A stretch of DNA of 64,000 nt. Source: Chrysophaeum taylorii (lineage: Eukaryota; Sar; Pelagophyceae; Pelagomonadales; Pelagomonadaceae). Location: positions 87,302-151,301 of the forward strand of contig JAQMWT010000673.1 in assembly GCA_029834535.1 (NCBI GenBank). Reading direction: 5' to 3'. The translations under genes and the position numbers were made by a program. A model generated the notes under the pieces. The model had not been told where the DNA came from. It did no database searches and was given only the letters and a program-made list of their open reading frames with translations. Below, in pieces: positions 25,010-57,647 of the stretch (positions are counted from its first letter, which is position 1; each line of letters begins with the position of its first letter).

Positions 25010-28000
25010 TTATTTCGCAGAGCGGCCACACAGCTCGTGGAACCAGCGATCAAAATCTTCAGGGGATTTGGGTCGAAGCTCGAGGGGACGGTTTCCTGCG
25101 CCGGCAACGAGTGGCGTGATCATGATGTGTCGCCGCTGGACGCCACCATCTACGAACGTACACATTCCAATGTGACACTCCCGAATAGAGTAAGCGGCCT
25201 CTTTAAGTGGCTTCGCGCCGTGTAACTGCGCAAGAAAAACGTCTCATACATGTAACAAACACAAGACGCACGTAGGCTTCGTGGTCACGGTAGTAGGCCA
25301 AAACATCGTTGATCGTCAGTACAAAAAAGCGCAAATGCCAACTTTTTCTGCCAAATACCGAGGATCCGCCTCCTTTCTTGTACATCTCGCCCTCCAACGG
25401 TTCCTGGTCGAGGACGGGGCCGTCTTTCAACAGCGTAGATCGGCGCTTCGCGTTCTGCGCGACGACTTTGAGGCGGGTTGCCTCGAATGACGACCGACAT
25501 TTCTTAGGCGACTGCTTCGTTTCAGCCTTCGCTCCGTCGATCATTGTCATGAAAGGGACGGCAGAGACGTTTTTGAGCGAAGACTTCGACGGTGCCATCA
25601 ACCCGCCCTGCGTTGTATCTTCGTCAGAACTCTTAAGGACGTTTTGCGGACTCGCAGGCTTTGGCAGTGGTTTTACGTCTGATGAAGGCACCTCATCGCT
25701 GCCGGCGAGTTCGTCGAGATGATGCTCGTCCGTTGGCACAAGAACCGACCCGCTGTAGGCCATCGCAGTTGCGGGGCTTTTAATGTTGTCATTGCGATCG
25801 AGGGCTGGTGATCGCTTCGGCGGAGGCGGAGGTGTAGCCAGAAGGTCGTGAACGCACAATTCTTTGTGCCTGTCCGGACTCTGGCCAGAAACTGTGCCGA
25901 CCAAAGCCAATTCAATGTGAGGTTCCGGTTTGATCACCTTGCTGGATCTTGAATCTTTTTCTTTGTGGAGCCCAGCACGACGCGCTCTACACCGTCTCCG
26001 TGAACGCTCCAGAAGACGTGCTTGCTCATGCCTGTAGGAGTCGATAAGCTGCTCCAGCTCACACCTCGCTGAAGTCTTGGCCAGCTCAAGCGCGTCAACG
26101 AGGGGCGTGACCTCAGACTGTCGAAGACTGGCGGCACGTTTTTTCTGGGCACATGTCGCGTGCCATTTGTAGCCACGCACATCAACCACACAACTCTCGG
26201 ACGCAACGATGGGCTTCGCGCAGCCAAGACACCAGTCGTCCGTATGCGTGGCACGGTATGCGTGCTCCGAATATGGCAAGCCCAAGTCATCAAATAGCAC
26301 CACATCATCCGGACCAAAGACCTGCTCGGTCACAAAACACCGACCGTATTTCTCGAGATAAGCCGACTCGCAGTAAGGCAGACCATCGTCACCTACGGCG
26401 CTTCACGTCACACAACGATATCGCGGAGTCAAAAACATGATAATACTCACCACCGGTATAACAAGGCACGCCTTTGACATCTAATAATTTGTCTGTCACC
26501 ACGCAAACCAAACACTCAGGATGGTATGCTACAGCTGCGTCGTGAGGCACAAGTAAGAGGTCTCTTGACGTGGTTTCTCGCCGCTGCCTTCCCGCACCGT
26601 CATTTCCCATTTCCTGCGCGCTCGACGGTGGGCCAATCAAGCGGTGGTCATCGACAATCAGTTCGGAGCACATGAAGCACGTCATCGCGAATCTTTCATT
26701 ATATGACTCTTTGTCGTAAATTTCTCCATCGTCGCCGATGAAAAACTCCAGTTCTCCCGTCACGTCGTCAACGGGAATTTTGCGTCCAGTGAGGCGGCAC
26801 ACAAAGTGCTCGGGATGCCATGCACGGCCAGCAGCGCGAACAATTTCGCCGTGCACCACATCGCCGCAGACATTGCACCTTTCGCCGAAATTGTCGAAGT
26901 ATGCTTCTGGCGTGTACGGCAACCCATCGTTCTCAAAGAACGCTTTCCCATCGAGCGAGACGCCAGTCGCGGCGCACCTAAAATGGTCCGCGTGCCAACG
27001 CTCACCACAAGCATCGACGTAGGCATCAAGAGCAGGCAGTACGGAATTGCCGCACGAAGGACAAGCGCGAGTCCAAAGCTTGCGGTAACATGATTCGCAG
27101 TACGGCATCACACCACGCCCGTCACCAGCGTCATGACCCCAACCCACACCGTCTGGAAGGTCCCCGCGATTCGCGCATTGCCTCGCATTAGCACAAACAT
27201 AGCATGAGGTGTGCCAAGACTCACCGAGGGCGCGGATTCCATCCGAGCCATCCATGTTCATGGGCTCAAAGCACGCATGACAGGTGAAGAGCATCTCGCG
27301 ATAAGCAGCTTCCGAATAGGGTTGTCCATTGTGCGCGTAGAAGCATGACGGATCGAGTCGTACGCCCGTCTCGGCACAACGAAAAAACTCTGGCATCCAT
27401 TTGTAGCCGCAGGCGACGATGAAGTTATCAGTCTTTAGAAGTGGTTGAAGCGTCGCGGCATCAATCCACTCACCGCCAAATTTTGCCAAATGGGCTGACT
27501 GCGTCCGCGGTAAGCCGTCGTGAAGCGCGAAATCCTCGTCTCGTAGTAAACGACCCGTGTCAACGCAGCGCCATTCTGAGACTGGCACACGCCGACCCTG
27601 GCGCTCGAGCACAACGAAATCGCCTTCTAAGAATATGATCTCGTCGTCATAGGCCACCATATCTTTCTCAACAGCGTCGTCATCAACAATATCATCATCA
27701 TCCTCCTCCTCCTCCTCCTCCTCATTCGCCATATTTTCTACACCTACGTTGTCCTTGCGATACATAGCAACAAACTTCTTCACTTCAAGGCGGAGCTTGG
27801 CATCACGTTTCGGGTTGAGCGAATGGAATCGTGGTGGTACGGAATTTTCTTCGTTCAACGAGATCTGGTGCGACAGGCGGGTCGAAGCCAAGGGAGTGCG
27901 TTTTGTCGGGAAATTTGCAGATCCAACTAAGGTTCGCGTGCTAATGCGTCGCTGTGTCTCCGTTGGCTTGGGAGCTGGCATAATGGAAGTGCTATCCGGT

Positions 28001-31000
28001 CGCATCATGAGAGGCTTCCCGTAGACACGCAGCTTTTCATCCTGTGAGTAGACACCCGAATGAATAATGTTACTTTTTTCACAAACAGTTCTTACTGTTT
28101 CGAGTTCCGCTTTCATTCGGACAGGTTCGTTGCCACTCCTATACGTTTCGCAGGCCACTCGACTGCCGTGATGTTTAGAGACTGAAGAATGTTGATCACC
28201 AGATGGTGAGACTTGGTTACGCGCCATTACGCCATCGACTTTCTGCCCATCATCCGAGTTGACCTTCCGCTCGAACTCAGATGTCGAAGAACTCTCTGCG
28301 GTTTCAGCTTCAGCCGAAGGGAGCGCCATGGCGCCGAGCGGCACGCCGACCATGTTCGGTGCCGGTGCAGAAAACCCGGCGTCTTCGTACGACCGCACTC
28401 GGTCCGCACCCCCCTTGTCCATAGCACGGACCGCGAGCGCTGTCGCCGATGGCTGCTTTTCGATGTTGGAAGCACTTGCCGCCTGCGCAGATAAGTTGTC
28501 GATATGAACGAGCTGCTGCCAGAGTGCGAGATGAGAGACGAGGTCGCTCGGAGCGACGTCGGACACGTCGGGCACGCAGCACACTCGGAGCCGACCGGCA
28601 ATGACACCAACCCACTTACCACAACAAACAACGGGAGCAGAAAAGACCGCACTGTCTCCAGCACCGCCGACGCTGTGCGCACCGTCCTCGGCGATGAGCG
28701 CATCAAAGAAACGCGAACGGGTTCGCCAGGTTTTCGACGTCGTTTGATTCGCTGCCACCAGCATCTTTCTGCCGTCGTCGTCATTCGTAGAATTGAACTG
28801 GCTCGAAGAATCGCGATTCGCAGCGTCTTGATGCCACAGTGGCGAATCGTAACGTGCATGAGCTACGTGCCAGGGCGGCAGTTGCTCATCGTCTTTGTTG
28901 GGTCGTGTCGGGTCCTTGGTGCCTGGCCTCGCGCCATCACTAGCGTGGTGACGCGTCAGCGAATCCAGGGAGTCCGCCTTAGCCCGCACGCGATCGAGAG
29001 GGATTTCGGCAAAGCCAAGGTGCTGGCCGTCGATGACTCGGCGGACGACAATGACCACTCGCTCGCGTGAAAGCCACTCGTCGTCAGAAACGGAGCAGAA
29101 CAGGGGCGGAGTTGCGTAGTGGGGCCAAATCCACGTCGGCGTCGCGTCGGACCAGACAGCGCTCGCCGACTCTTCGGCACTGAACCTCTCGGGCTGCGGC
29201 GGAGGCGCTGAGGAGCGTGCGGGCTGGAACGTTGAACTGCCGGAGTGCAATGTTCGTCGCAGTGATGAGACGCTTCCGCGCTTAGTTCGGGTGCTGGTCC
29301 GCGTTCCTTGATCAGCGTCGCCTTTCTTCAATTTTTTCAGCCGCCATTGGGCGTCTAGTTCGGCAGCTTCACACTGCGTCGGGTTGGCACACGGCGCCAT
29401 GACGGCACAGTCGGCGATCTGAGAAGGTGAGTACGAAGCCTTGTCGCCGGGACGAAGAAGGAACGGGGCTTTGACCGAGAGCGAAAGAGGGCCGGCGTAC
29501 CCGTCGTACCGAAAGCTCGTTTCGCAACCGACGGGCGAAACCTCGGGCGCCAGGGTGAAGACGACGTCCTCCAAGCTCATCCAACAGACGCCGAGCGCTC
29601 CGATCTTGTGCGGCGGTCGAGGGGGGGGATTTGTAGCAACGCTGAACGCGGCGCGCACGGGCATATGATCGCTAAAAGCCAGAGCTTTGTCGAAGCAGGC
29701 TTCGTAACTCACGAAGGCGCACCCGACTCTCCCGTCTCGATCACTGTAGTTGTCGTCGTCGTCGTTGTCGCCGTCGCAGAGCCAGGTCGCCAAATTGGCC
29801 TGGGCCGCCCTATCGCCTTTGCACGTCTTCCAAAGGATTCTATCGCAGAATGATGGATTTTGATGCTTCTTGTTGGAATAAGTTTTGGGGTGGCCCTTAA
29901 CCACGCGGTAGGTGGGCGGAAACGTGACGGGCCCCTCGTGGAATATGGGGAAGACGGCCGTGTGCTCTTTGCGTTCGCGCTCGAGTTGGTCCCATTGTCG
30001 TAACCTGACGAAATCGCCGGCTTGGGCGTACTGGAGGACACAGGCGAACTCGTCCTCGGAGCCGTGGGCACCCTTGTCGACTCGATAATTCAAATCGCCA
30101 AACCAGAACACGGTGTCGAACTGGTGGAGTGTTTGGATCGATCGCAACGACGGGTGCGCGGCGCCGTGGAGCCGAAGACCACGTGAAATCTCTTCGTAGT
30201 TTGACTGGCGTTCGGCGACGCGAGTCGCGCGCGCCGCCAGGTGGGACGTGACGAACGCGACGGAGAGTTCCCCCCCGCCGCGACGTCCGGGTTCGAGCCT
30301 GAGAGCGACGGCGGCGGCACCCTTGTTTCCCAGAACGTGAGCGAAACCCGTTGCCTCCGTGTTTGCGGCAACCGCAGCAAGCCTCTCCTTGAGGTCTTTC
30401 CTCAAGTAGACGACCAAGTGGATGTCCCAGAGAGTCGAAATGGCCGCGACGACGTAGTACGAATCGTCGTCGTCGTCGTCGAAGAAGCTCGTATCGATGA
30501 CACCGCGACGTTCGAGGCGTTCTCTGGCGAGCGATGTCTTCCGGCACAGGTGTTCGTTCATGACCTTGAGCCAGCGGCGCTTTTCCGAGTTCTCCTGGAA
30601 CCCGACGGCGTAGACGTCGTACTCGCCGCGCGGCAACCACGCGTCGAGGTCGTCGGGCGCCTTGGGCGGCTTGGCGTCGCCAACGTTGAAGGTGCCGCAC
30701 ATCACGCGGAGCCTCTCTGTGGTCTGCGCACCCCCATCGCCATTCTCACCCCCCTGACGCAAGTAAGCCAGGAACGATCCGCGCGCGGACTCGGTCGCGA
30801 AGCACATTGCGAGGCGCTGGCCGCCGCCGGGCGTCGCGCCGCTTTTCCGCCGCGTCACTCCCCAACTCACATCGATGCGCCGCGGATTAGTGAGCGAAGG
30901 GGTGATGGTGGCCCAGTCCAGGGCGATCTCGCGGCCATCCTGGATCTCGAGTTTGCGGCCCGCGGGATCAAATACGACGCGCGACGAAACGAACGGATCG

Positions 31001-31422
31001 AATCTCAAGTTGCATATCTCGACGTTGAAGGCCACCTCCCCGTTGGGCGCAATGCTTACGTGATCGCCGGGTGCGTCGAGTGCGCGCCCGCTGGTGAGAA
31101 TGCGCAACCACGTCAAAAACACCTCGCGCAGCGCGCCGCTCTCGAACTTCCACGTTTCCGTAGCGCGAGACCCCCCGCGCGTCAGCGTGAGCTCCCGCGA
31201 ATCGCCCGCGCTCCGTCGCGCGCTCGACACCTCATCGAGGCGAAACAAAACTTCTGCGTCCTGTTGTCCACCCGCGATCAACACAAATCCAGCCGCGCTG
31301 TCACCCCCGAACCGCAAAGTTCGCACAATCTGTGACCTCCTCTTGGAAGCCCCGCCGTCGCTCACGTTGAACGACGCCGCGCTGATGGCCTCCCGTAACT
31401 CTCCGAGCGTCTCGAGGTCCAT
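25010..31422 (-). CDS. Inositol polyphosphate 5-phosphatase with LIM-like array and PH domain
   Basis: Three exons (26451-31422, 25272-26392, 25010-25225) with introns of 58 and 46 bp give 2102 aa. Two PH-like segments lie at the N-terminus. The phosphatase domain spans about 232-600 with VMCGTFNVGD, FWFGDLNYRVD, FCDRILWK and SDHMPVRAAF, so the catalytic set is present. A C2-like region follows, then a long disordered stretch. Between about 1270 and 1740 lies a LIM-like array. The C-terminal PH domain (about 1988-2102) is only complete after splicing out 25226-25271 (SPEDFDRWFHELC near the end). The enzyme should remove the 5-phosphate of phosphoinositides at membranes. In most LIM-like modules the second finger has C-x2-T instead of C-x2-C. 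The architecture is unlike SHIP or synaptojanin. Confidence 0.88.
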
Positions 31423-32431
31423 CCTCTGGTAAGCAAGCGCCGATGGACCACCACAGCCGCGCCACCGCCGCCGCTCGGTTGATCCCTCTGGCCAAATCCG
31501 GCAGCTTATTAGGACAACTTTCGAGGTCTTTGTACAACTTTCGAGGGTACGTACCTGGGGTCGGAACCCGCCTTACTGTGTCGTCTCGCAGTCCCTTAAC
31601 TGAAAAACCCGCCACCCTTGCCCTTTCTACACTCTGTGTCTCCTCCTGCGACCCGCCCTCCGGCGACTCCGACTGCGTCCCTTGGGGCGCCACCCTCTCA
31701 TGCACACTCACTCCCCTTGCACTCCGCGCTTGCCTATCCCCCGCCATCTGACCCCCCGCGCCCATTGCTCAGAGCCACACCTCCCTCCCCACATTTTGGA
31801 GCTTAGTTATTCCAGTCCTCCTCCTCCTCCTCCTCCTCAGAGGGGGCTGACGGCGGAGAGCGACGACGACGACGACTCGTCTGTTCGCGCCCTTTCGTGG
31901 CCCGCCCAAAGGGCATTATGAGCTGCAGCTGCTCGAAGCACCACCACCAGAACAGCGAGGAGGGGTGGAGACTATGATGTGGGCGGGCCTGAACAGAATG
32001 ACGCACCTCTAAAATTCACGTACCGAATTCTTGGACGTCACGCATGGTGGCGTCGATAGGAGGTGGGGTAAAAGGATGTCGAAAGAAAAACCAGTGAATT
32101 GCGATGCACGGGGAGGGGGGGGTTTCCTGCGCTAGAATGACTCTTGATGTTGTAGGCGGGCGAAAGCGGCTCATAAACCTGGCTGGCACCAACTCGCGTC
32201 AGCGCATCATTCTCGTCACTCGAAAAGGAGAAACACTCAGAGATAGAGTGACACGGCAAGTGCACCCAAATAAGTGATGATGCCCAACACCGAGACGGCG
32301 TGCGGCTTTTTTGTATGGACGAATGGGTCATGAACAAAGGTGACTACGGGAGATCGTCCTCTTTTTTTTGGGGGGGGAACCGCGATCGGCAAACGACCGC
32401 CAGCTACGCGTAAATTCGAGAAAAGGTCCAT
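31423..32431. other. Intergenic: 5-phosphatase upstream region and PDZ-gene 3' flank
   Basis: Short overlapping ORFs only. A small frame ending at 32238 contains a hydrophobic stretch (VLGIITYLGALAVSLYL) and could be an extra exon, but no start could be assigned. A TCC-repeat lies near 31817-31838. Confidence 0.35.
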
Positions 32432-48368: not shown

Positions 48369-51300
48369 CTAGAGAGTTCGGAAGCAGACGAGGTACTCGG
48401 GATAGGCTTGGGCGTCGTGGTAGGTAACGAAAATCGCGGGATTTTGCACATTGTTGACCGTAGAATCGTAGAGTTGATTGGTCGATGGATCGCGTACGTC
48501 TGGCGCGAGCGCGCCTTGTTTGCCGAGACAGTACTCGCCAACAAGGACGCGCACGAGAAACATATGCTGGTTCCCGTCGGCGTCGGGGACGCTGTATTTC
48601 CCGCTGGCCGAGTACGAGGCGTCGCGGGCGAAGTATACCCCTTTCCCGAGTTTGACCGCGTGGCGACCGCAAAAGTTTCGGTTGAATCCCTGTTGTACGA
48701 TCTTGGGGATAACGTCCGGGGAAGTGCCGTGGAAGAGCCACTGGCGCTCGAAGCGCGCGGCGGTGTGGTGGGCGTCGATTTCCTTTTCTCGCTGCAGAAC
48801 GGTCTCGCGCTTGACCGCGTAGCTCTGCCACATGCTGACGTTCTGTATTCGATCTATCGAGACGATCTTTACCCTCTCGGGATCGAGAGTCTCGAAGAAA
48901 AAGTTAGCGACGCGCCGAGTCTCTTCGTGGTGCTGGCGAGAGTCGAGGCGAAACGACTGGGCCACGAGCGGGTCTCGAACATTTTCCCAGTGCTCTGGCA
49001 CGTCGAGGAGGCCCGCGGCGCCGCCGGTCAATTTGGCGAGACGGCTTAGCGCGTCGCGACTGGGCTCGGACGTCCGCGCGATCGGGAACCAGCCAGATCC
49101 GGTGGACACGGTAATGGTGGCGCCGTCGTCGCGCACGTAGCTGCGGGGGGGGGGGTTCGAGGCAAGTTCCTTCTCGACGGTCCCCTCGGGTTCGAGGATG
49201 ACCGACCCGTATGCTAAGCCGTCAGGGCGGCTCCTCGTGATCTGGACGAGCGAGCCCGCTCTCAACGCGAGAAGCGGTTCGTCCGCGTCGAGGTCATCGG
49301 TGACGACGGACGTGGATTCTTCCAATAGTTCTGAACATCGGGAGATCTCGACCTCGATTCGTCGAGGAGCCGAACGCAGGACCTTTCGTAGGATGCGTCC
49401 CGAGGCGTCGATCTGCTCCATCGTTTCGAAGTCGACCGCGTAGCTCTCCGCGTCGCCGTCGTCCGCCGACACGAACCGCTCGCCCCTCAGGTACGCTGCC
49501 TCGAGCTCTCTCGCGACGGGGCCGTCGTATTCAACCCACCCCGACGTCGCGTCCTCCTCCTCCTCCTCTTCTTCTTCTTCTTCTTCTTCGTCCTCCTCCT
49601 TTTCGTCGTCGTCGCCTTTTTTCCAATACCACGCGGCGGCGACGTTATCATCAAAGTCCGAGGAGAGCGTCTGGTGGATCTGCACGAACGTGTCGAGATG
49701 CTCGGCGGGATTCCAGTCTGCGACGACCGACTTCATCGCGACCGCGTTGTCTTGGATATTCTGGATTTCCTTTTCGAGGCCGAGGATGCGACGTTTTTGC
49801 GCGCGAATCTTGACGCGCTGGCGGTAGACGTACGCGAAGGCGCACAAGAGGACGACCCCAAAGATGGGCCCGAGGATGACGAGGATCTGTTCGACGCGCC
49901 TCGCATTATTGAAATTGCCGCCGCGTCCCGAAGAAGAAGAAGAAGAAGAACAGTCGTAGATAATATTCGCGTAGAAGTCGCCGCGCCGCGGGTACGGCGC
50001 GACGCCGAGCTCGGCCATCGGCGATTCGACGTTTGTCGACGTATCGTAGAGCCACGCCACGTAGGCGAGCGCGTCCGACGCTCCGTTTTCCGCGCACTGC
50101 GCCTCGACGTCGGCGACCGGAATAGAAACCTCGAACCCCATCGCGAAGGGCCAGCACTCGGCGTTGCCCGCGAATATTCGCTCGTCGAGCATCGCGAGAT
50201 GTCCTGAATGATCCGTTATCACGCTGTCCATGCACGCTGCCAGACTTGACGTCGACAAGGAAATTCTGGTCCCGTCCGTCGCGAGGGTCGCCGCCTTCTT
50301 CACCCGGTCTCCCCCGACGTCGCCGATCGCCGCGACGTAGCCGAGCGCGCCGTCCCGATACTCGACGGCCGCGTAGACGTGCGAGTCGCTCTCGACTACG
50401 TCGTAGCTGCCGTCGACGACGAGGGTATAGTTCGCCCTCACCAAGGATGTCTCGCACACCCTCTCCAGGACTGTGGTGAAGGTTAAGGTGGTTTGCGAGA
50501 CGTCGGAGCGCGACACGAGCAGGATCGGCTGCCGCCGAGGGAGCGAGAGAGAGGGGTTTTCGGCCCTGATCGCGGGGTCGTCCCAAAACGTAATTTCGAG
50601 CGAGTAAATTTTGGCAAGAACGAGCGGCGACAGCACAATTTGTTCCGCACCCGCGGCGGAGTCAAGGGCGTCCAATCTCAATACGACTTGGACGCCCGCC
50701 GCGAATATCGGGGCCACGAACGCCGCGCGGGGCGCATCATCAAAGTCGACCGCGCCAGACACAAAGACCTTGACACTCGTTGCGTTCGACCCGAGGACTT
50801 CTTCCACCACGTGTGGCGAGGCTTCGTACGCTTCCGCGCGAACCACAACATCGCTCGAAAACTCCGCGTACGCCGAGTTGATCGAGTCGAAGAGCCGAGC
50901 GGCCAGGGCCGGCACGGACGCGGGCAGCCGGCGCACCAGCTGGAAGTCTACGACAGGACGTTCCCCGTTGTCGCACTCGACCTGCTCGACGATCATGGTC
51001 GCAACACTCTCGCGCATGTGTTCCGGCAACCGCGCAAACCCCAGCCGCTCCTGGACCAGTCCTGGGGTGTCGGTCGTGTAGAACCACGCGAGAAAATTGA
51101 GGGTCGCCGCGCGCGCCGCGCAGTCGCGGCCGACGTGGGTCGTCTTGCGCAGGACGAAATACGTGAGGCTCGAGATGGGCCACGCGGTCGACGACGACGC
51201 GTCCTCGATGTCGGCCGTGAGCCTCGGGTTGTCGAGCAACAGACCCGAGAGCTCGGCGAGCGCGTACTCCACGCTCGCCGTCGAGGCTGTCACGACGCGC

Positions 51301-51986
51301 CCGTACTTGTTGATGACGTTCGCGTAGTCGACGCCGCGCTCGACCGCCTCTGACAGCACCACGTACCCGATCGAATACTCCAGAGCCAACACGGCCGCGA
51401 CGACGCCGTCCGTCGTGTCGCCGCGCTCGAACCCGCCCGGCCACGCCGGCTCCTTCGAGGCGCCGATCGTGCGGTTGAAATCGACCGAAAACTTTGACAG
51501 CGCGATCGTGAATATTTCGGTCGTCCCGCTCGAGTCCTCCCTCACCACCGGCACGATCGTCGCATTGGGGAGCGCGACCCCCGGGTTAGTCGCGGCTATC
51601 AACGGATCGTTCCACCGCGCGACGACCCCTCGAAACACGTCGGCGAGCGCCTCGCGCGACAACGCGAGGGTCGTGCCGACACCGGGCACGTTATAAATCG
51701 GCACGACTGCCGTCGCGGTCGAAGGATACATCTGCAAATCGGGAACCTCCTCGTAGTCGGACGCTCGTAGCACTGAGTCCGACCCCGCGAAGTCCGTCGT
51801 CAACGCCGCCAACCAATCGTCGTCCAAATCCACGCCCGCCTCGTCGCGTTTGATGAGTTCGATTCCCCGCCCCGAGCCCGTCGACGTGTACTCGACGGTG
51901 TCCTCCGCGCCAAACGGATACACGTACGCGACCTCGCGGTAGAGCCGCGCGGGGAGCGACGCGCCAGCACCGACGACCACAACCAT
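48369..51986 (-). CDS. Receptor-like ADP-ribosyltransferase: two PstS-like domains, TM, WWE, SH3-like, PARP
   Basis: Uninterrupted frame giving 1205 aa from the ATG at 51986; a signal peptide is not clear and an upstream exon may be missing. The first domain matches PstS-type phosphate-binding proteins: GAGASLPARLYREVA, STGSGRGIE, TTDFAGSDSVL, VVREDSSGTTEIF. A second, more divergent copy follows (about 380-690). One membrane helix lies near 698-719 (ILVILGPIFGVVLLCAFAYVY), followed by a coiled coil. A WWE domain starts AAWYWKK near 782 and contains a poly-Glu insert. An SH3-like domain (ALRAGSLVQITRSRPDG, GWFPIART) precedes the PARP catalytic domain: LFHGTS, GVYFARDASYSASGKY, PAIFVTYHDAQAYPEYL. 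The triad reads H-Y-I, as in mono-ADP-ribosyltransferases. Ligand binding outside and catalysis inside is inference from topology. Confidence 0.88.
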   Translation of the reverse strand: MVVVVGAGASLPARLYREVAYVYPFGAEDTVEYTSTGSGRGIELIKRDEAGVDLDDDWLAALTTDFAGSDSVLRASDYEEVPDLQMYPSTATAVVPIYNVPGVGTTLALSREALADVFRGVVARWNDPLIAATNPGVALPNATIVPVVREDSSGTTEIFTIALSKFSVDFNRTIGASKEPAWPGGFERGDTTDGVVAAVLALEYSIGYVVLSEAVERGVDYANVINKYGRVVTASTASVEYALAELSGLLLDNPRLTADIEDASSSTAWPISSLTYFVLRKTTHVGRDCAARAATLNFLAWFYTTDTPGLVQERLGFARLPEHMRESVATMIVEQVECDNGERPVVDFQLVRRLPASVPALAARLFDSINSAYAEFSSDVVVRAEAYEASPHVVEEVLGSNATSVKVFVSGAVDFDDAPRAAFVAPIFAAGVQVVLRLDALDSAAGAEQIVLSPLVLAKIYSLEITFWDDPAIRAENPSLSLPRRQPILLVSRSDVSQTTLTFTTVLERVCETSLVRANYTLVVDGSYDVVESDSHVYAAVEYRDGALGYVAAIGDVGGDRVKKAATLATDGTRISLSTSSLAACMDSVITDHSGHLAMLDERIFAGNAECWPFAMGFEVSIPVADVEAQCAENGASDALAYVAWLYDTSTNVESPMAELGVAPYPRRGDFYANIIYDCSSSSSSSGRGGNFNNARRVEQILVILGPIFGVVLLCAFAYVYRQRVKIRAQKRRILGLEKEIQNIQDNAVAMKSVVADWNPAEHLDTFVQIHQTLSSDFDDNVAAAWYWKKGDDDEKEEDEEEEEEEEEEEEDATSGWVEYDGPVARELEAAYLRGERFVSADDGDAESYAVDFETMEQIDASGRILRKVLRSAPRRIEVEISRCSELLEESTSVVTDDLDADEPLLALRAGSLVQITRSRPDGLAYGSVILEPEGTVEKELASNPPPRSYVRDDGATITVSTGSGWFPIARTSEPSRDALSRLAKLTGGAAGLLDVPEHWENVRDPLVAQSFRLDSRQHHEETRRVANFFFETLDPERVKIVSIDRIQNVSMWQSYAVKRETVLQREKEIDAHHTAARFERQWLFHGTSPDVIPKIVQQGFNRNFCGRHAVKLGKGVYFARDASYSASGKYSVPDADGNQHMFLVRVLVGEYCLGKQGALAPDVRDPSTNQLYDSTVNNVQNPAIFVTYHDAQAYPEYLVCFRTL

Positions 51987-53194: not shown

Positions 53195-53888
53195 TGCAGG
53201 CCATGCCCAGCCTGTCAAAGCACTCTGCCCTGATGGTATTCGCGGGCGAGACGGACAACGTTGCCCTACTGCGCATGAACAAGAATTTCATTGCGGCGGC
53301 CCGGATCAAGTAAAGCGACCTCGGACCCAAGACCGAGTTCAATAGCGCCGTGTGCACCATTCCCGAAGACTCTTCGGAGATGGATGTTGATGAGAAAGAG
53401 CAAGACGAAGATACCGGGGTCGTTCGTTCACATCGCCTAAGGCAAGAGATCATTGCGCGTCTTTATCCGGGACGTCCGCCCTTTATTCTCTCTTCTGCGT
53501 TGGGCGGGCCCCGTTGAAAGAACGCATATAGGCAGAGGTGCAGCATGGACCTTTTTTTGAAGGCTGCTGAATCCCTTCGTTGGTCGAGAGGAGGAAGAGT
53601 CTCGCCGCGCGCATTTCTCCCCTATAGTATAGTATAGGGAATATATAATTGTCTACTCTTGAATGAGTGCGCGAGACGATGACTCCCATTTGTGCCGTCC
53701 TGGCGCTCCCTTATTTTTTCCGCCGCGGAAAGAGAGCGACGTTGCATGTTGCCAACCCCGGACCCGTTCTTTTGTTGGACAGTGTCTGTAGAGTACTTCT
53801 CACAATTATTAGACTTACGAAGAATATCATACTTATGACGTCATCACGAACTATGTGAAGGAGGACTAGGCCTCGACGTTGTTGTTAG
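53195..53888. other. Relic coding sequence and upstream region of the LRR gene
   Basis: Right after family B a plus frame reads MPSLSKHSALMVFAGETDN, then a TAA at 53311, then stays open (EDSSEMDVDEKEQDEDTG) to about 53515. It could be the remainder of a transposon protein. A TATA-like ATAGTATAGTATAGGGAATA lies near 53624-53645. Confidence 0.3.
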
Positions 53889-56800
53889 ATGATGGAGCGG
53901 CAAGGATCGGAGCGATCGCAGATAACGTCGTCAACGATGACGACGACGACGGTCGGCACCACCAAGGAGGAACCTATATTGGCGGCCGAACGCACGAAGA
54001 TGGGCGGTGCGTAGTTCTTTCATTTCCAAAGAAGAAAATGAAAGCGTGGTGTTGTAGGCGGACTTTGGACGACGGAGAAGTACGGGGACCTGTCCCAAGG
54101 CGACAAGCGGTTGGCGGCGGCATTTGTGACGGGTCGCGTGGAGTTGCGGCAGCTGCGCGGGCTCTACAAGATCGAGTTCAAGGAGCTCGCGGTCGTATAT
54201 CGGCGGACGGGCGAGGACGGGACGAAGGCGCCGCTGCGGGCGCGCGTGTACCTGACTCAGAAGACGGCAAAGAAGCGCATGGCGGACCTCGAGGAGACAT
54301 CGTACGCGGTGCCTGTGGACGGAGACGGTTACGTCGGGAATCGCGAGGCGACGTTAGGAGCGTTCGAGCTGAGCCTCCGCGACGCGCCGGTGGATCCGAG
54401 GGAGTACCGCGGCCTGGTCGTCGCCAAGCCCGCGCGCGAGGTGCCTTTGACGGAGGAGCCCGCGGTGTACGGGTACGCGCGCTTCATCGACGACCGGCCC
54501 GAGATTCCGACGACGGACAACGCGTTGGGCATGAACGAGTACAAGGATCTGCTCGAAAAGGCACGGAAGCACGCGGCGACGTTAAGGGGGGGGCAGGCGA
54601 CGACGAGCCATCATCATCAGTGGAAGTCGATGTCGTACTACAAGCGCATGGCGCGCAAAGCCTGGGAGGAGCTGGACAAGGTGGAGGAGGCAGAGATGGA
54701 CGCGGAGGAGTTCAAGCGCGCGTTGGACTTGCTGGACGTGACGATGCTCGAGCCGCGCGCGATCCGGCTGTTCGAGGCGGCGGACCTGGACAATTCGGGG
54801 TTCATCGGGATGACCGAGTTCGAGGTCGCTCTGATGATGCACGACGGCGCGCCCGACGCCGGGTTGACGCCGCAGGACGCGTTCAAGATGTTTGACTTCG
54901 AGAAGAAGGGAACTATCAGTCGCACGGCGTTTCCGCGGGCGGCGGCGTCGCTCGAGGTAGCGAAGACGTTTCCCGGCAAGCCCGAGTCGGAGGAGCGGCG
55001 GCGGGCGATGGAAGCGTTGTTTGACGTCGTGGACAAGGACGGCTCCGGGGAGATCTCGTACGCCGAGTTTCGGAGCGCGTGGGCGCAGCTCGTGGACGTC
55101 GAGTTCGAGCTGCGGCGGCGCGGAATAGCGCCGGCCAAGGTGCCCAAGTTTCTGCGGGCGTTTGGGCTGGCGACCCGCGGCGCGATGGCGATCAACCGCC
55201 ACGCCTTACTCCGGGCGTGCGCGGACGAGGAGTCGGCCGAGCGCCGGGCGTTCGAGGACGCGCGGCGCCTGGTCGACGACTTGCGGGAGAGCGCGCGTCG
55301 AAAGCGCGACGAGAAACGACGGGCGCGAGCAGCCGCGCGCGACAAGCTCGGGTCGTCGGCGGCGCGCGATACCGCGCTCCGGAACAAGGAGCGCACGGCG
55401 AGGTTGCGGAGAGAACAGGCCGCGCGGTCGCGGCACCGCGAGGAAGAGAAGGTGGCGCGGAATCGGCTCGCGGCCGAGCGAGCGCTGGCCAAGCGGCGAG
55501 CGGACGCGCAGCTCCGCGCGCGGTCGGCGCAAAAGGAGGAGGACCGCGTGCGCGAGATTCGCGCGGCGGGGCTCGACCGCCTCGAGGCCACCTTCCGGGA
55601 CCTCCGCGTCGTTCCGCGCGAGATGTTCGCGAGCCTCGCGGCGCGCGAACGGCTCGCCGACGTCGTTTGGGCGGATTTCGGCGACAATCGCCTCGAGGTC
55701 CTGCCGTCCGAGGGGTTTTTGATGTGGTTCGCGTCGCTGCGATACCTGCGGCTCGCCAACAACCGCCTCGTCTCCTTGCCCGGCGCGGAGCTCGGCAAGA
55801 TGGGCAAGCTCCAAGTATTGCGGCTCGGCCGCAACGAGTTGACCGAGCTGCCGTCGTCGATCGGCGAGCTCCTCGAGCTGCGGGAGCTCGACGCGTCGAT
55901 CAACCGCCTCGCGACGCTCCCCGGTGCCATCTCGAACCTCCGGATGCTCGGGTCGCTCGACCTCGCGTCGAATCACATCGCGGCCGTGCCGAACGGCGCG
56001 CTCGGCCCGTTGTTCGGGCTGCGAACCCTCTCGCTCCGCGCGAACAGGCTCTTCGAACTTCCTGACGACATATCCGAGGCCGTCTCCCTCACGACCCTCG
56101 ATCTTCACAACAATCGGCTCCACGCGCTCCCCGAGCACATCGGCGACCTCGTGAGGCTCAAAGGCTCGACGTCTCGACGAACGCCCTCTCGACGCTCCCC
56201 GACTCGGTTTTGGCCTCGCGTCGTGCGAGGTCTTTTTGCTGTCTCGGAACGAGATCGTCGGTCTGGGGCCCTGGATCGGCGGCTGGAAGCGCGCGACCCT
56301 CGTGGACGCCTCCTTCAACAAAATCGCGAGGGTCGACCGCGCCGCGGGCGCGCTCCGCTCGCTCGTCGACCTTCGGCTTCGCGGAAACGAGTGCGTTTCG
56401 CTGCCGCCCGAGGTAGGGCTGGCGCGCCAACTCCAAACCTTCGACTGTTCGGCCAACGCCCTCGCGACACTCCCCGTCGAACTCGGCGCCCTGGCGCACC
56501 TTCACACCGTGACGCTCGGGCGGAATTCCATCGCCGGTCTCCTCCCGCGAGAGATCGGCCTCCTTCGGTCGGCGACGCGTCTCGACCTCTCGTACAACAA
56601 GATCGAAGAGCTCCCCGAGACCGTCCGGGGGCTCCAGGAGCTCATCGTCCTCAACCTCGACCACAATCGCCTCGAAACGTTGCCCGACGCGATTTTCGAC
56701 TGCGCCCGCCTCGAAAACCTCTCCGTCGCTGCCAACAGGCTGCGCGCGCTTCCCGCTTTCGGCGGCGGCGGACCGGCCCTCCGCGTCCTCGACCTCACCT

Positions 56801-57647
56801 CAAACCTCATCGAAGAACTCCCCGCCGACATCGCGCGACTGGCCAACATCACGCGAATCTATCTCGGCAAGAACCGACTCCGCTCGCTCCCGATCGAAAT
56901 GGCCGACCTCCTCGACCTCGCCGACGAGGTGCGCTTAGATAGGAACCCGTTTTCGGACCTCCCCCCGAGATGGTCGTGCTACGACGCCGACCTGGCCATC
57001 CAGTGGGTCCGCGACCACGCGAGGTTTTACCGAGAGGCCCTCGAAGAGTGGGACGCGACCGGACCCTCCACGTCTCCGGCCGCTCCAACCTCGCCGCCTA
57101 CGAAGCCGCCGTCAAACGACGCTGCGGCTCAACCTGATCGACCACCACGCCCCTCCTCCGTTCCTACTATTTCCGCGCGAAAAGGACCGGCACCGCGCCC
57201 AGGTTCGACAAGCTCGCCGACGACGACGCCAAACTCCGAGCGACCGCGCGCCGCAAGGCTGACGCCATTCGTGACTTCCGCGCGACCAAGGCTAGACGAG
57301 ACTCGATCTTCTTTCACCGTCTCCAGGAAGACCTCTACCACGAAAATCTCCGACCGCGAATCGCCGTCGCCGAAACGCGCTTCAATCTCCGACGCGAACG
57401 CACCGCCGCTCTCGACTCCACTGACGACACCCTCCTCGAGGAAGTCCACCGCCGCGCGATACTCCAGGACCAACGCGAGGCCCATGTCGAGGATATCCGC
57501 CTCCAGGAGGAACTCCTCCAACTCCAGGCCCTCCACCAACACCTCGACACCTGTGGCGACCCGACGGACGGGACTCACTTTTTCCTCCAATTGGTGGCTT
57601 CTATTCCAACGGCTACCCTTCTTGACACAACCAACGAGTTGAGGTAG
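53889..57647 (+). CDS. EF-hand / coiled-coil / leucine-rich-repeat protein, frame-broken
   Basis: Exon 1 (53889-54006, MMERQGSERSQITSS) joins across a 51-bp intron (54007-54057) to a long exon. EF-hand-like units follow: RLFEAADLDNSGFIGMTEFE and VVDKDGSGEISYAEFRSAW, the second with a good calcium loop. A charged coiled coil comes next, then at least a dozen LRRs of the LxxLxLxxNxLxxLP type. The frame breaks near 56160 and 56215, where two missing bases or a 79-bp intron (56151-56229) would repair it. It breaks again near 57056. Beyond that a coiled-coil C-terminus (FDKLADDDAKLRATARRKAD) is open to 57647 except for one TGA near 57138. The gene may be decaying or carry base-call errors. Role unknown; such proteins are often scaffolds. 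Confidence 0.6.

Follow-up and report, generated by a model that had tools for sequence, protein, structure and literature searches.

A putative PstS-headed receptor mono-ADP-ribosyltransferase in the genome of the pelagophyte alga Chrysophaeum taylorii

A stretch of 64,000 nucleotides from the genome of Chrysophaeum taylorii (the window) was found to carry, on its minus strand, a gene that may well encode a type I single-pass receptor mono-ADP-ribosyltransferase, the PstS branch of which would sense phosphate or a similar oxyanion; a probability of roughly 0.55 is given to this reading. What the sequence shows directly is the set of domains and their order, the residues of the binding site and the catalytic triad, as well as the existence of related genes and of other proteins in which each half is used again. 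A family of receptors seems to have arisen in the alga, each of them a single chain at the cell surface that ends inside the cell in an ADP-ribosylating enzyme, and no published description of a receptor-PARP was found in a literature search.

The whole coding frame (48369..51986, minus strand, stop codon included) runs from an ATG at 51986 to a stop at 48369 and encodes 1205 amino acids; it is open up to 52142, giving 1257 codons from stop to stop, whereas 30 Markov-1 windows matched to it in composition had no frame longer than 429 codons. When the frame was taken from 52064 and searched with Pfam, it matched PBP_like_2 in two stretches (E = 3.2e-30, over the cut-off), PARP (E = 1.4e-25; 90.4 bits against a cut-off of 26.7) and WWE (E = 1.7e-7; 32 bits against 21.1), with no match to a kinase domain and no 7tm_3 domain. 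The resulting order of two PstS-type domains, one membrane helix, WWE, a weak SH3-like domain and PARP was that of the original prediction; the profile searches proposed there for PstS, WWE and PARP all succeeded, with Pfam scores over the cut-offs.

PstS-type domain 1 (aa 4–341; 50964..51977, minus strand) was delimited by Pfam and by phmmer against PDB sequences, among which the best PstS match had an E value of 1.4e-36 and all 17 sequences at 1e-20 or better were phosphate-binding or phosphate-transporter chains. Domain 2 (aa 358–692; 49911..50915, minus strand), which lacks the first strand, was delimited by the second Pfam stretch, hhalign and alignment, and its three-row profile matched a profile of 28 bacterial PstS in hhalign at 99.6% (E = 7.9e-24). 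The phosphate-ligand positions of domain 1 were found to be S10, S38, D70, R149, S153, G154 and T155, the counterparts of which in E. coli PstS we take to be T10, S38, D56, R135, S139, G140 and T141; six of the seven were invariant across domain 1 and the 28 bacterial PstS, the exception being serine in place of T10. In the alignment, domain 2 keeps the equivalents of R135 and S139 and has lost those of T10, S38 and D56. The predicted pair of PstS-type domains was recovered by profile, and its phosphate ligands in domain 1 but, for the most part, not in domain 2. The aspartate and arginine of PstS select phosphate, and the conserved site residues of domain 1 suggest that phosphate could be the ligand.

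It is possible, if unlikely, that the protein is a receptor mono-ADP-ribosyltransferase in which PstS serves as a generic Venus-flytrap scaffold and the ligand is a different oxyanion, a small molecule carrying phosphate or a protein partner. Domain 1 is just 31–38% identical to the aligned bacterial PstS, domain 2 is without most ligands, and a class C GPCR of the same genome (L009, with 7tm_3), which has the PstS tandem at its head too, shows an altered GSGTT loop in domain 1; these features suggest that ligands may differ between members. Nevertheless, domain 1 of both PARP-type genes, that of the window and a second one considered below, has retained the ligand positions, among them the aspartate and the arginine. 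The bacterial PstS relatives were of the ordinary kind: at least 564 were confirmed among at least 595 pattern matches, with no clear donor among the 80 listed relatives kept (30–36% identity). Searches of viral contigs confirmed no relative of the whole window protein from 600 pattern matches, and none from 19 pattern matches obtained through the PARP alignment.

The single membrane helix of the original prediction was borne out as the sole clear hydrophobic peak (aa 701–719; 49830..49886, minus strand), with a mean hydrophobicity of 2.59, the weaker peaks of 1.78 and 1.68 falling within the PstS domains. Lysine and arginine amounted to 3 in the 15 residues before the helix and 8 in the 20 after it, which favours the receptor reading; in the second gene they numbered 7 on each side, which speaks against it. 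Of the predicted coiled coil, what stood was a few heptad-like repeats, read by eye, in the basic stretch that follows the helix (aa 721–757; 49716..49826, minus strand). The window frame starts with MVVVVGAGASLP, and no signal peptide was found in it ahead of domain 1. A scan of the 2 kb upstream for ATGs with a hydrophobic core gave five candidates (53830, 53546, 53360, 52705 and 52438), the strongest of which, at 53830, lies about 1.8 kb from the frame; among these, as judged by eye, no signal-peptide exon was found. The second gene begins with MMWSKIRGLVVGSGLVSG before domain 1, by eye a plausible but weak signal sequence.

That no signal peptide was found for the window gene would suit a protein of an inner membrane (vacuole, acidocalcisome or ER) with lumenal PstS domains, which would report stored phosphate or anchor the PARP; the topology would be equal, and PARP16 is anchored at the ER. 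This location is doubtful, given the start of the second gene and the surface-receptor make-up of both the GPCR with the same tandem and the ANF-type relatives. Bacterial PstS serves an ABC importer, and by analogy the ectodomain might merely capture phosphate for uptake, the PARP being constitutive or responding to another cue. Such a role is improbable, since the PstS tandem on a GPCR points to signalling and no pst permease was found among the 14 other large frames of the window, 10 of which had Pfam matches. The same scan found no pst importer, SPX or ADP-ribose proteins; two ABC-2-type transporters were present, of a family different from the pst permease. Bacterial contamination was rejected, as the contig has Nup93/Nic96, EF-hand/LRR, LIM and ubiquitin-conjugating-enzyme frames and the second gene contains a GT-AG intron of 49 bases.

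On the C-terminal side of the helix, the WWE domain, a type also found in PARP14, spans aa 784–868 (49383..49637, minus strand; Pfam stretch aa 813–868) and is split by an acidic insert, its limits being set by Pfam and a WWE search of the same genome. The predicted SH3-like domain (49065..49289, minus strand, ending in GWFP), delimited by the family alignment and by profile against PDB, was recovered weakly: a seven-row family profile gave seven PDB matches with E values of 0.001 to 0.1, to short myosin-3/5, Vav and Caskin chains that are presumably SH3 domains, and SH3_2 was matched in one relative under the Pfam cut-off (E = 6e-4). The PARP catalytic domain (aa 994–1203; 48378..49007, minus strand) was delimited by Pfam and was closest among PDB sequences to PARP15, PARP14 and PARP10 (E = 2e-43, 9e-40 and 3e-38, respectively). 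Alignment to PARP15 placed the predicted H-Y-I triad at H1086 (LFHGT; 48729..48731), Y1118 (GVYFA; 48633..48635) and I1185 (PAIFVTY; 48432..48434), all on the minus strand. The third triad residue is glutamate in polymerising PARPs, and PARP10, PARP14 and PARP15 are active mono-ADP-ribosyltransferases; assignment of the window PARP to the mono-ADP-ribosyltransferase type is supported by its non-glutamate third residue. That the domain is enzymatically dead and used as a scaffold is quite improbable: the loss of the triad histidine in one relative (C606) indicates that decay happens in the family, but here the triad is intact in all three residues and the domain matched PARP10, 14 and 15 at E = 2e-38 or better.

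The second gene (L008, contig C389) was found to have the same domain order as the window gene (contig C673). In aligned columns the two were 58% identical in PstS domain 1, 53% in PARP, 31% in WWE and 24% in the helix and juxtamembrane region. The third codon position was the most diverged in PstS domain 1 (0.65/0.66/0.47 by codon position), PARP (0.61/0.72/0.41), PstS domain 2 and the SH3-like domain, as in constrained coding; in the helix and juxtamembrane region and in WWE it was not. At a further 14 loci in the genome an ANF-receptor match is followed downstream, without change of strand, by a match to WWE or PARP. Nine of these were read and six run through Pfam, and all six gave 5'-nucleotidase-C, ANF receptor, WWE and PARP in that order. 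The N-terminus of C125 alone had no phmmer match in PDB, whereas a six-row profile did give PDB matches. The HGT histidine was present in 10 of the 11 receptor-type frames read; in C606 the HGT string at 1332 aligns to the tyrosine motif instead, and in C323a the histidine site is at 1506, a regular-expression match at 467 lying in the ectodomain.

With the PstS tandem on a GPCR and another ectodomain on the TM-WWE-PARP part, head and output look swappable, and these arrangements, together with the second gene, back the reading of the window product as a single-chain receptor. The ectodomain and the cytosolic parts differ in origin, but it is very improbable that two adjacent genes, or pieces joined wrongly in the assembly, were taken as one; this was rejected on the unbroken 1257-codon frame, which on sequence gives no sign of the two separate genes that would have refuted the original prediction, on the same order at C389 and on the helix lying inside one frame in the other receptor-type PARPs. 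In a midpoint-rooted tree of the PstS domains, which has long branches, the three second domains (window, L008 and GPCR) grouped with support of 100/99, the first domains of the two PARP-type genes with 95/90 and all three first domains weakly (82/64). In the PARP tree the second gene joined the ANF-type group (88/89), apart from the window PARP, the placement of which, like that of PARP15, lacks resolution. The two PstS-type genes are thus sisters by ectodomain, their sisterhood by PARP being without support.

From these features we infer how the receptor lies in the membrane and is secreted, what it binds, how its enzyme acts and is coupled to binding, and which substrates it modifies. The PstS-type clamp tandem would hang on the membrane outside the cell, where domain 1 would close around inorganic phosphate or some similar oxyanion and domain 2, with most of its site lost, would probably be structural or a dimer partner. 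Closure of the clamp would rearrange the chains and be relayed to the WWE-SH3-PARP part in the cytosol by way of the helix and the basic stretch next to it. This part would thereby be switched on or off in the transfer of single ADP-ribose groups from NAD+, with the receptor or neighbouring proteins as acceptors, and the WWE may recognise partners bearing ADP-ribose or the modified receptor. More tentatively, and at somewhat under even odds, receptor ADP-ribosyltransferases may form a new class in this lineage with interchangeable bacterial-type heads (the PstS tandem, or a dead 5'-nucleotidase with an ANF flytrap), the PstS branch being a plasma-membrane sensor of external phosphate that signals by mono-ADP-ribosylation.

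Several known systems share parts of this design. Bacterial PstS resembles the ectodomain by profile and in the ligand positions kept in domain 1, whereas the window protein is a membrane-tethered tandem fused to a signalling tail, with a degenerate domain 2 and without a pst importer in the scanned frames of the window. PARP10, PARP14 and PARP15, of which PARP15 is the best match in PDB, share the catalytic domain and a triad of H, Y and a non-glutamate residue; they have macrodomains or RNA-binding parts, with no ectodomain and no membrane helix. PARP16 likewise joins a PARP to a membrane helix, as a tail-anchored mono-ADP-ribosyltransferase with the enzyme at the N side, a very short lumenal tail and no ligand-binding ectodomain. 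By sequence, the window protein is like enzyme-linked receptors in having a ligand-binding-type ectodomain, one helix and a cytosolic enzyme on one chain; to our knowledge, the receptor enzymes known all end in kinases, cyclases or phosphatases. The flytrap of the animal Venus kinase receptors is not PstS-type. These receptors are described with activity induced by extracellular amino acids and the same plan of a periplasmic-binding-type (Venus flytrap) ectodomain, transmembrane segment and cytosolic enzyme on one chain (PMC3703292); the enzyme there is a tyrosine kinase and here a PARP. Similarly, the class C GPCRs of diatoms, which are also algal receptors, have ectodomains of the bacterial periplasmic-binding or 5-nucleotide-C type, and L009 bears the PstS tandem of the window gene, but their output is seven helices instead of a PARP, and in the available part of that source the ectodomains are PBP1 or sugar-transporter-like, with PstS not mentioned (PMC3727952).

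If the receptor reading is true, ADP-ribosylation would be a new output of transmembrane signalling, and outside conditions would be linked directly to NAD+ use; on the broader reading of a receptor class, the alga could use its two kinds of head to detect both phosphate and nucleotide-like compounds in its surroundings. Whether diatoms sense phosphate at the plasma membrane or internally is stated to be unknown in PMC11448323, and the PstS-headed receptor offers a concrete candidate sensor type for algal phosphate. With 84 LHC matches in its genome, the host appears to be photosynthetic, and its three macrodomain matches are possible readers or erasers of the modification. A point against the main reading is that three SPX matches over the cut-off equip the cell to sense phosphate from within as well.

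The minus-strand frame at 48369–51986 was found to be open over 1257 codons from stop to stop (1205 aa if translation starts at ATG 51986), compared with 429 codons for the longest chance frame in 30 composition-matched Markov-1 windows. The Pfam families PBP_like_2 (in two stretches, 3.2e-30), WWE (1.7e-7) and PARP (1.4e-25) all exceeded their cut-offs, and the original observation of two PstS-type domains, a membrane helix, WWE and PARP was confirmed. Among PDB sequences, the head matched PstS (1.4e-36), and the tail matched PARP15 best (2e-43), followed by PARP14 and PARP10. The PARP domain carries the expected H-Y-I triad (H1086-Y1118-I1185). The membrane helix (aa 701–719) is followed by a basic stretch, a WWE domain bearing an acidic insert, the SH3-like domain and PARP. 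The SH3-like domain was recovered only with a family profile, giving seven PDB matches (E 0.001–0.1) to chains of myosin-3/5, Vav and Caskin, which we take to be SH3 domains. The phosphate site is kept in the first PstS domain and not, as a whole, in the second. Domain 1 (aa 4–341) aligned with PstS over its length and was read at seven positions presumed to be the phosphate ligands of PstS; six of these (S38, D70, R149, S153, G154 and T155) were invariant in the window and 28 bacterial PstS, and the seventh was serine, where E. coli has threonine 10. Domain 2 (aa 358–692) was PstS-derived by profile comparison (99.6%, E 7.9e-24), lacked the first strand and, among the ligand residues, retained no more than the arginine and the first serine, a pattern common to all three tandems aligned.

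The second PstS-type PARP gene, C389, displayed the same domain order, with its PARP continuing past a 49-base GT-AG intron. Identity to the window gene over aligned columns was 58% in PstS1, 37% in PstS2, 42% in the SH3-like domain and 53% in PARP, and 24–31% in the helix region and WWE. In the former four domains it was the third codon positions that had diverged most, which did not hold for the helix and WWE stretches. A third PstS tandem, with a phosphate loop altered relative to the window gene, forms the ectodomain of a class C GPCR frame at C695 (L009:4231–8502 (+); 7tm_3 8e-31, PBP_like_2 5.9e-22). The PstS domain tree, built with 14 of the 28 bacterial PstS and one E. coli-like chain and midpoint-rooted (with a program warning of long branches), placed all six tandem domains together on the same side of one branch (99/99). 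Among these six, the three second domains clustered firmly (100/99) and the three first domains weakly (82/64). The simplest reading of these sequences would be one internal PstS gene duplication, after which the tandem was joined to two different outputs. The single PstS of C314 fell elsewhere, on a very long branch. This frame (L010:3559–5301 (-)) has one PstS domain, with a hydrophobic stretch near its N-terminus and a membrane helix at its C-terminus, and may be a tethered phosphate-binding protein.

The PARP search returned 21 matches in the genome. Two were PARP1-like with WGR domains (C360, C552), two were PstS-type (the window gene at C673, and C389), and 12 lay on the same strand as an ANF_receptor match and a few kb downstream of it, as found by comparing the PARP and ANF tables (C125, C129, C323 ×3, C242, C370, C379, C439 ×3 and C388, the last with an internal stop). 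The other five (C495, C474 ×2, C480 and C122) were in neither class or unclassed. ANF and WWE matches with a PARP-type tail missed by the search were found at C149, whose tail is interrupted by a change of frame such as an intron could cause, and at C606 (L052:1239–5498 (-)), which has lost the triad histidine and is likely catalytically dead. The genome thus holds 16 receptor-type places, two PstS-type and 14 ANF-type. The helix region was read in 11 of them, namely both PstS-type and nine ANF-type; Pfam covered six of these nine and part of one C439 copy, with C323a, C149 and C606 outside that scan, and one C323 copy, three C439 copies and C388 were seen in search tables or as a partial frame only. 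All six scanned frames presented 5_nucleotid_C, ANF_receptor, WWE and PARP in that order, with WWE in C379 and 5_nucleotid_C in C323b below cut-off; the partial C439 frame showed ANF_receptor, along with a Peripla_BP_6 match that did not reach its cut-off. Judged by domain content, this is a set of putative receptor PARPs with interchangeable heads, larger than the single gene first noted. A six-row profile from ANF-type N-termini matched 25 PDB sequences of 5'-nucleotidases with E no higher than 0.01 and a lowest value of 3.8e-11. Since the family has GG and NPRD where the best match has GD and GNHE, presumably metal-site motifs, this part is probably a dead enzyme retained as a binding module. 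Six stretches (L038, L040, L041, L042, L043 and L044) show such an N-terminus, with metal-site motifs apparently lost, before the ANF receptor domain. The 15-row PARP tree grouped the ANF-type PARPs (100/99) with C389 beside them (88/89) and did not resolve the window PARP and PARP15. The window gene is the sister of C389 by its ectodomain sequence, a relationship not shown by the PARP tree. The shared WWE-SH3-PARP layout suggests, without proving it, that all receptor-type PARPs go back to one origin.

The favored reading, with a probability of roughly 0.55, is a receptor mono-ADP-ribosyltransferase sensing phosphate or a similar oxyanion. Ligand would close PstS domain 1 outside the cell, the signal would cross the membrane via one helix, and mono-ADP-ribosylation inside the cell would come under control of the head, with WWE possibly reading the modification or providing feedback. 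If one ligand had to be named it would be phosphate, since both PstS-headed PARP genes preserve the site; a different ligand is possible but less likely. The readings given here and below are not mutually exclusive, and their probabilities do not add up to one. Placement of the protein in an inner membrane is unlikely. A scan of the 2 kb upstream of the window gene for ATGs with a hydrophobic core revealed no signal peptide; it listed five candidate ATGs with such a core, judged by eye, the strongest about 1.8 kb away. C389 offered a weak candidate by eye. Lysines and arginines number three in the 15 residues before the window helix and eight in the 20 after it, and seven on each side in C389. 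Three SPX matches exceeded the cut-off in the genome, so another phosphate sensor is available in the cell. The missing signal peptide, the weak C389 candidate with its even charge and the SPX matches count against the receptor reading. The predicted single-chain phosphate receptor is partly supported, namely in its domains and their order. Capture of ligand without signalling is improbable. A dead PARP, for which C606 offers a precedent, is more improbable still with the triad in place, and two genes instead of one are highly improbable given the single open frame.

Judged by domain order, the window gene would belong to a known kind, the enzyme-linked receptors. It would resemble the Venus kinase receptors (PMC3703292) in its working, with PARP in place of the kinase. 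Among the literature matches listed, mostly open-access titles and abstract starts, no receptor with a PARP tail was described, which is weak evidence of absence. If ligand and activity were shown, there would be a real chance that this set of PARPs deserves a receptor class of its own. Diatom class C GPCRs with PBP1 or 5-nucleotide-C heads are described in PMC3727952, and PMC13187674 states that the machinery of phosphate-calcium signalling is unknown. In the present genome, L045:1499–6619 (+) is a class C GPCR frame whose ectodomain is a right-handed beta-helix, and L046 resembles it by eye. L053:357–3998 (+), at C366, has an ANF receptor match; after it come a stretch that by eye is rich in cysteine and no fewer than five hydrophobic segments.

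The genome (70.8 Mb, 697 contigs) gave 84 light-harvesting-protein matches, for which reason the host was taken to be a photosynthetic alga. Runs of such matches with identical scores at C88, C390, C539 and C518 suggest recent tandem duplication or homogenisation. Within the window, a 1727-aa frame (26392–31572 (-)) joins a LIM domain to Exo_endo_phos2, a family which presumably includes inositol-polyphosphate phosphatases. An EF-hand and leucine-rich-repeat frame (54042–56939 (+)) adjoins the receptor gene on the opposite strand; its translation becomes arginine/proline-rich near the end, where a change of coding frame is suggested.
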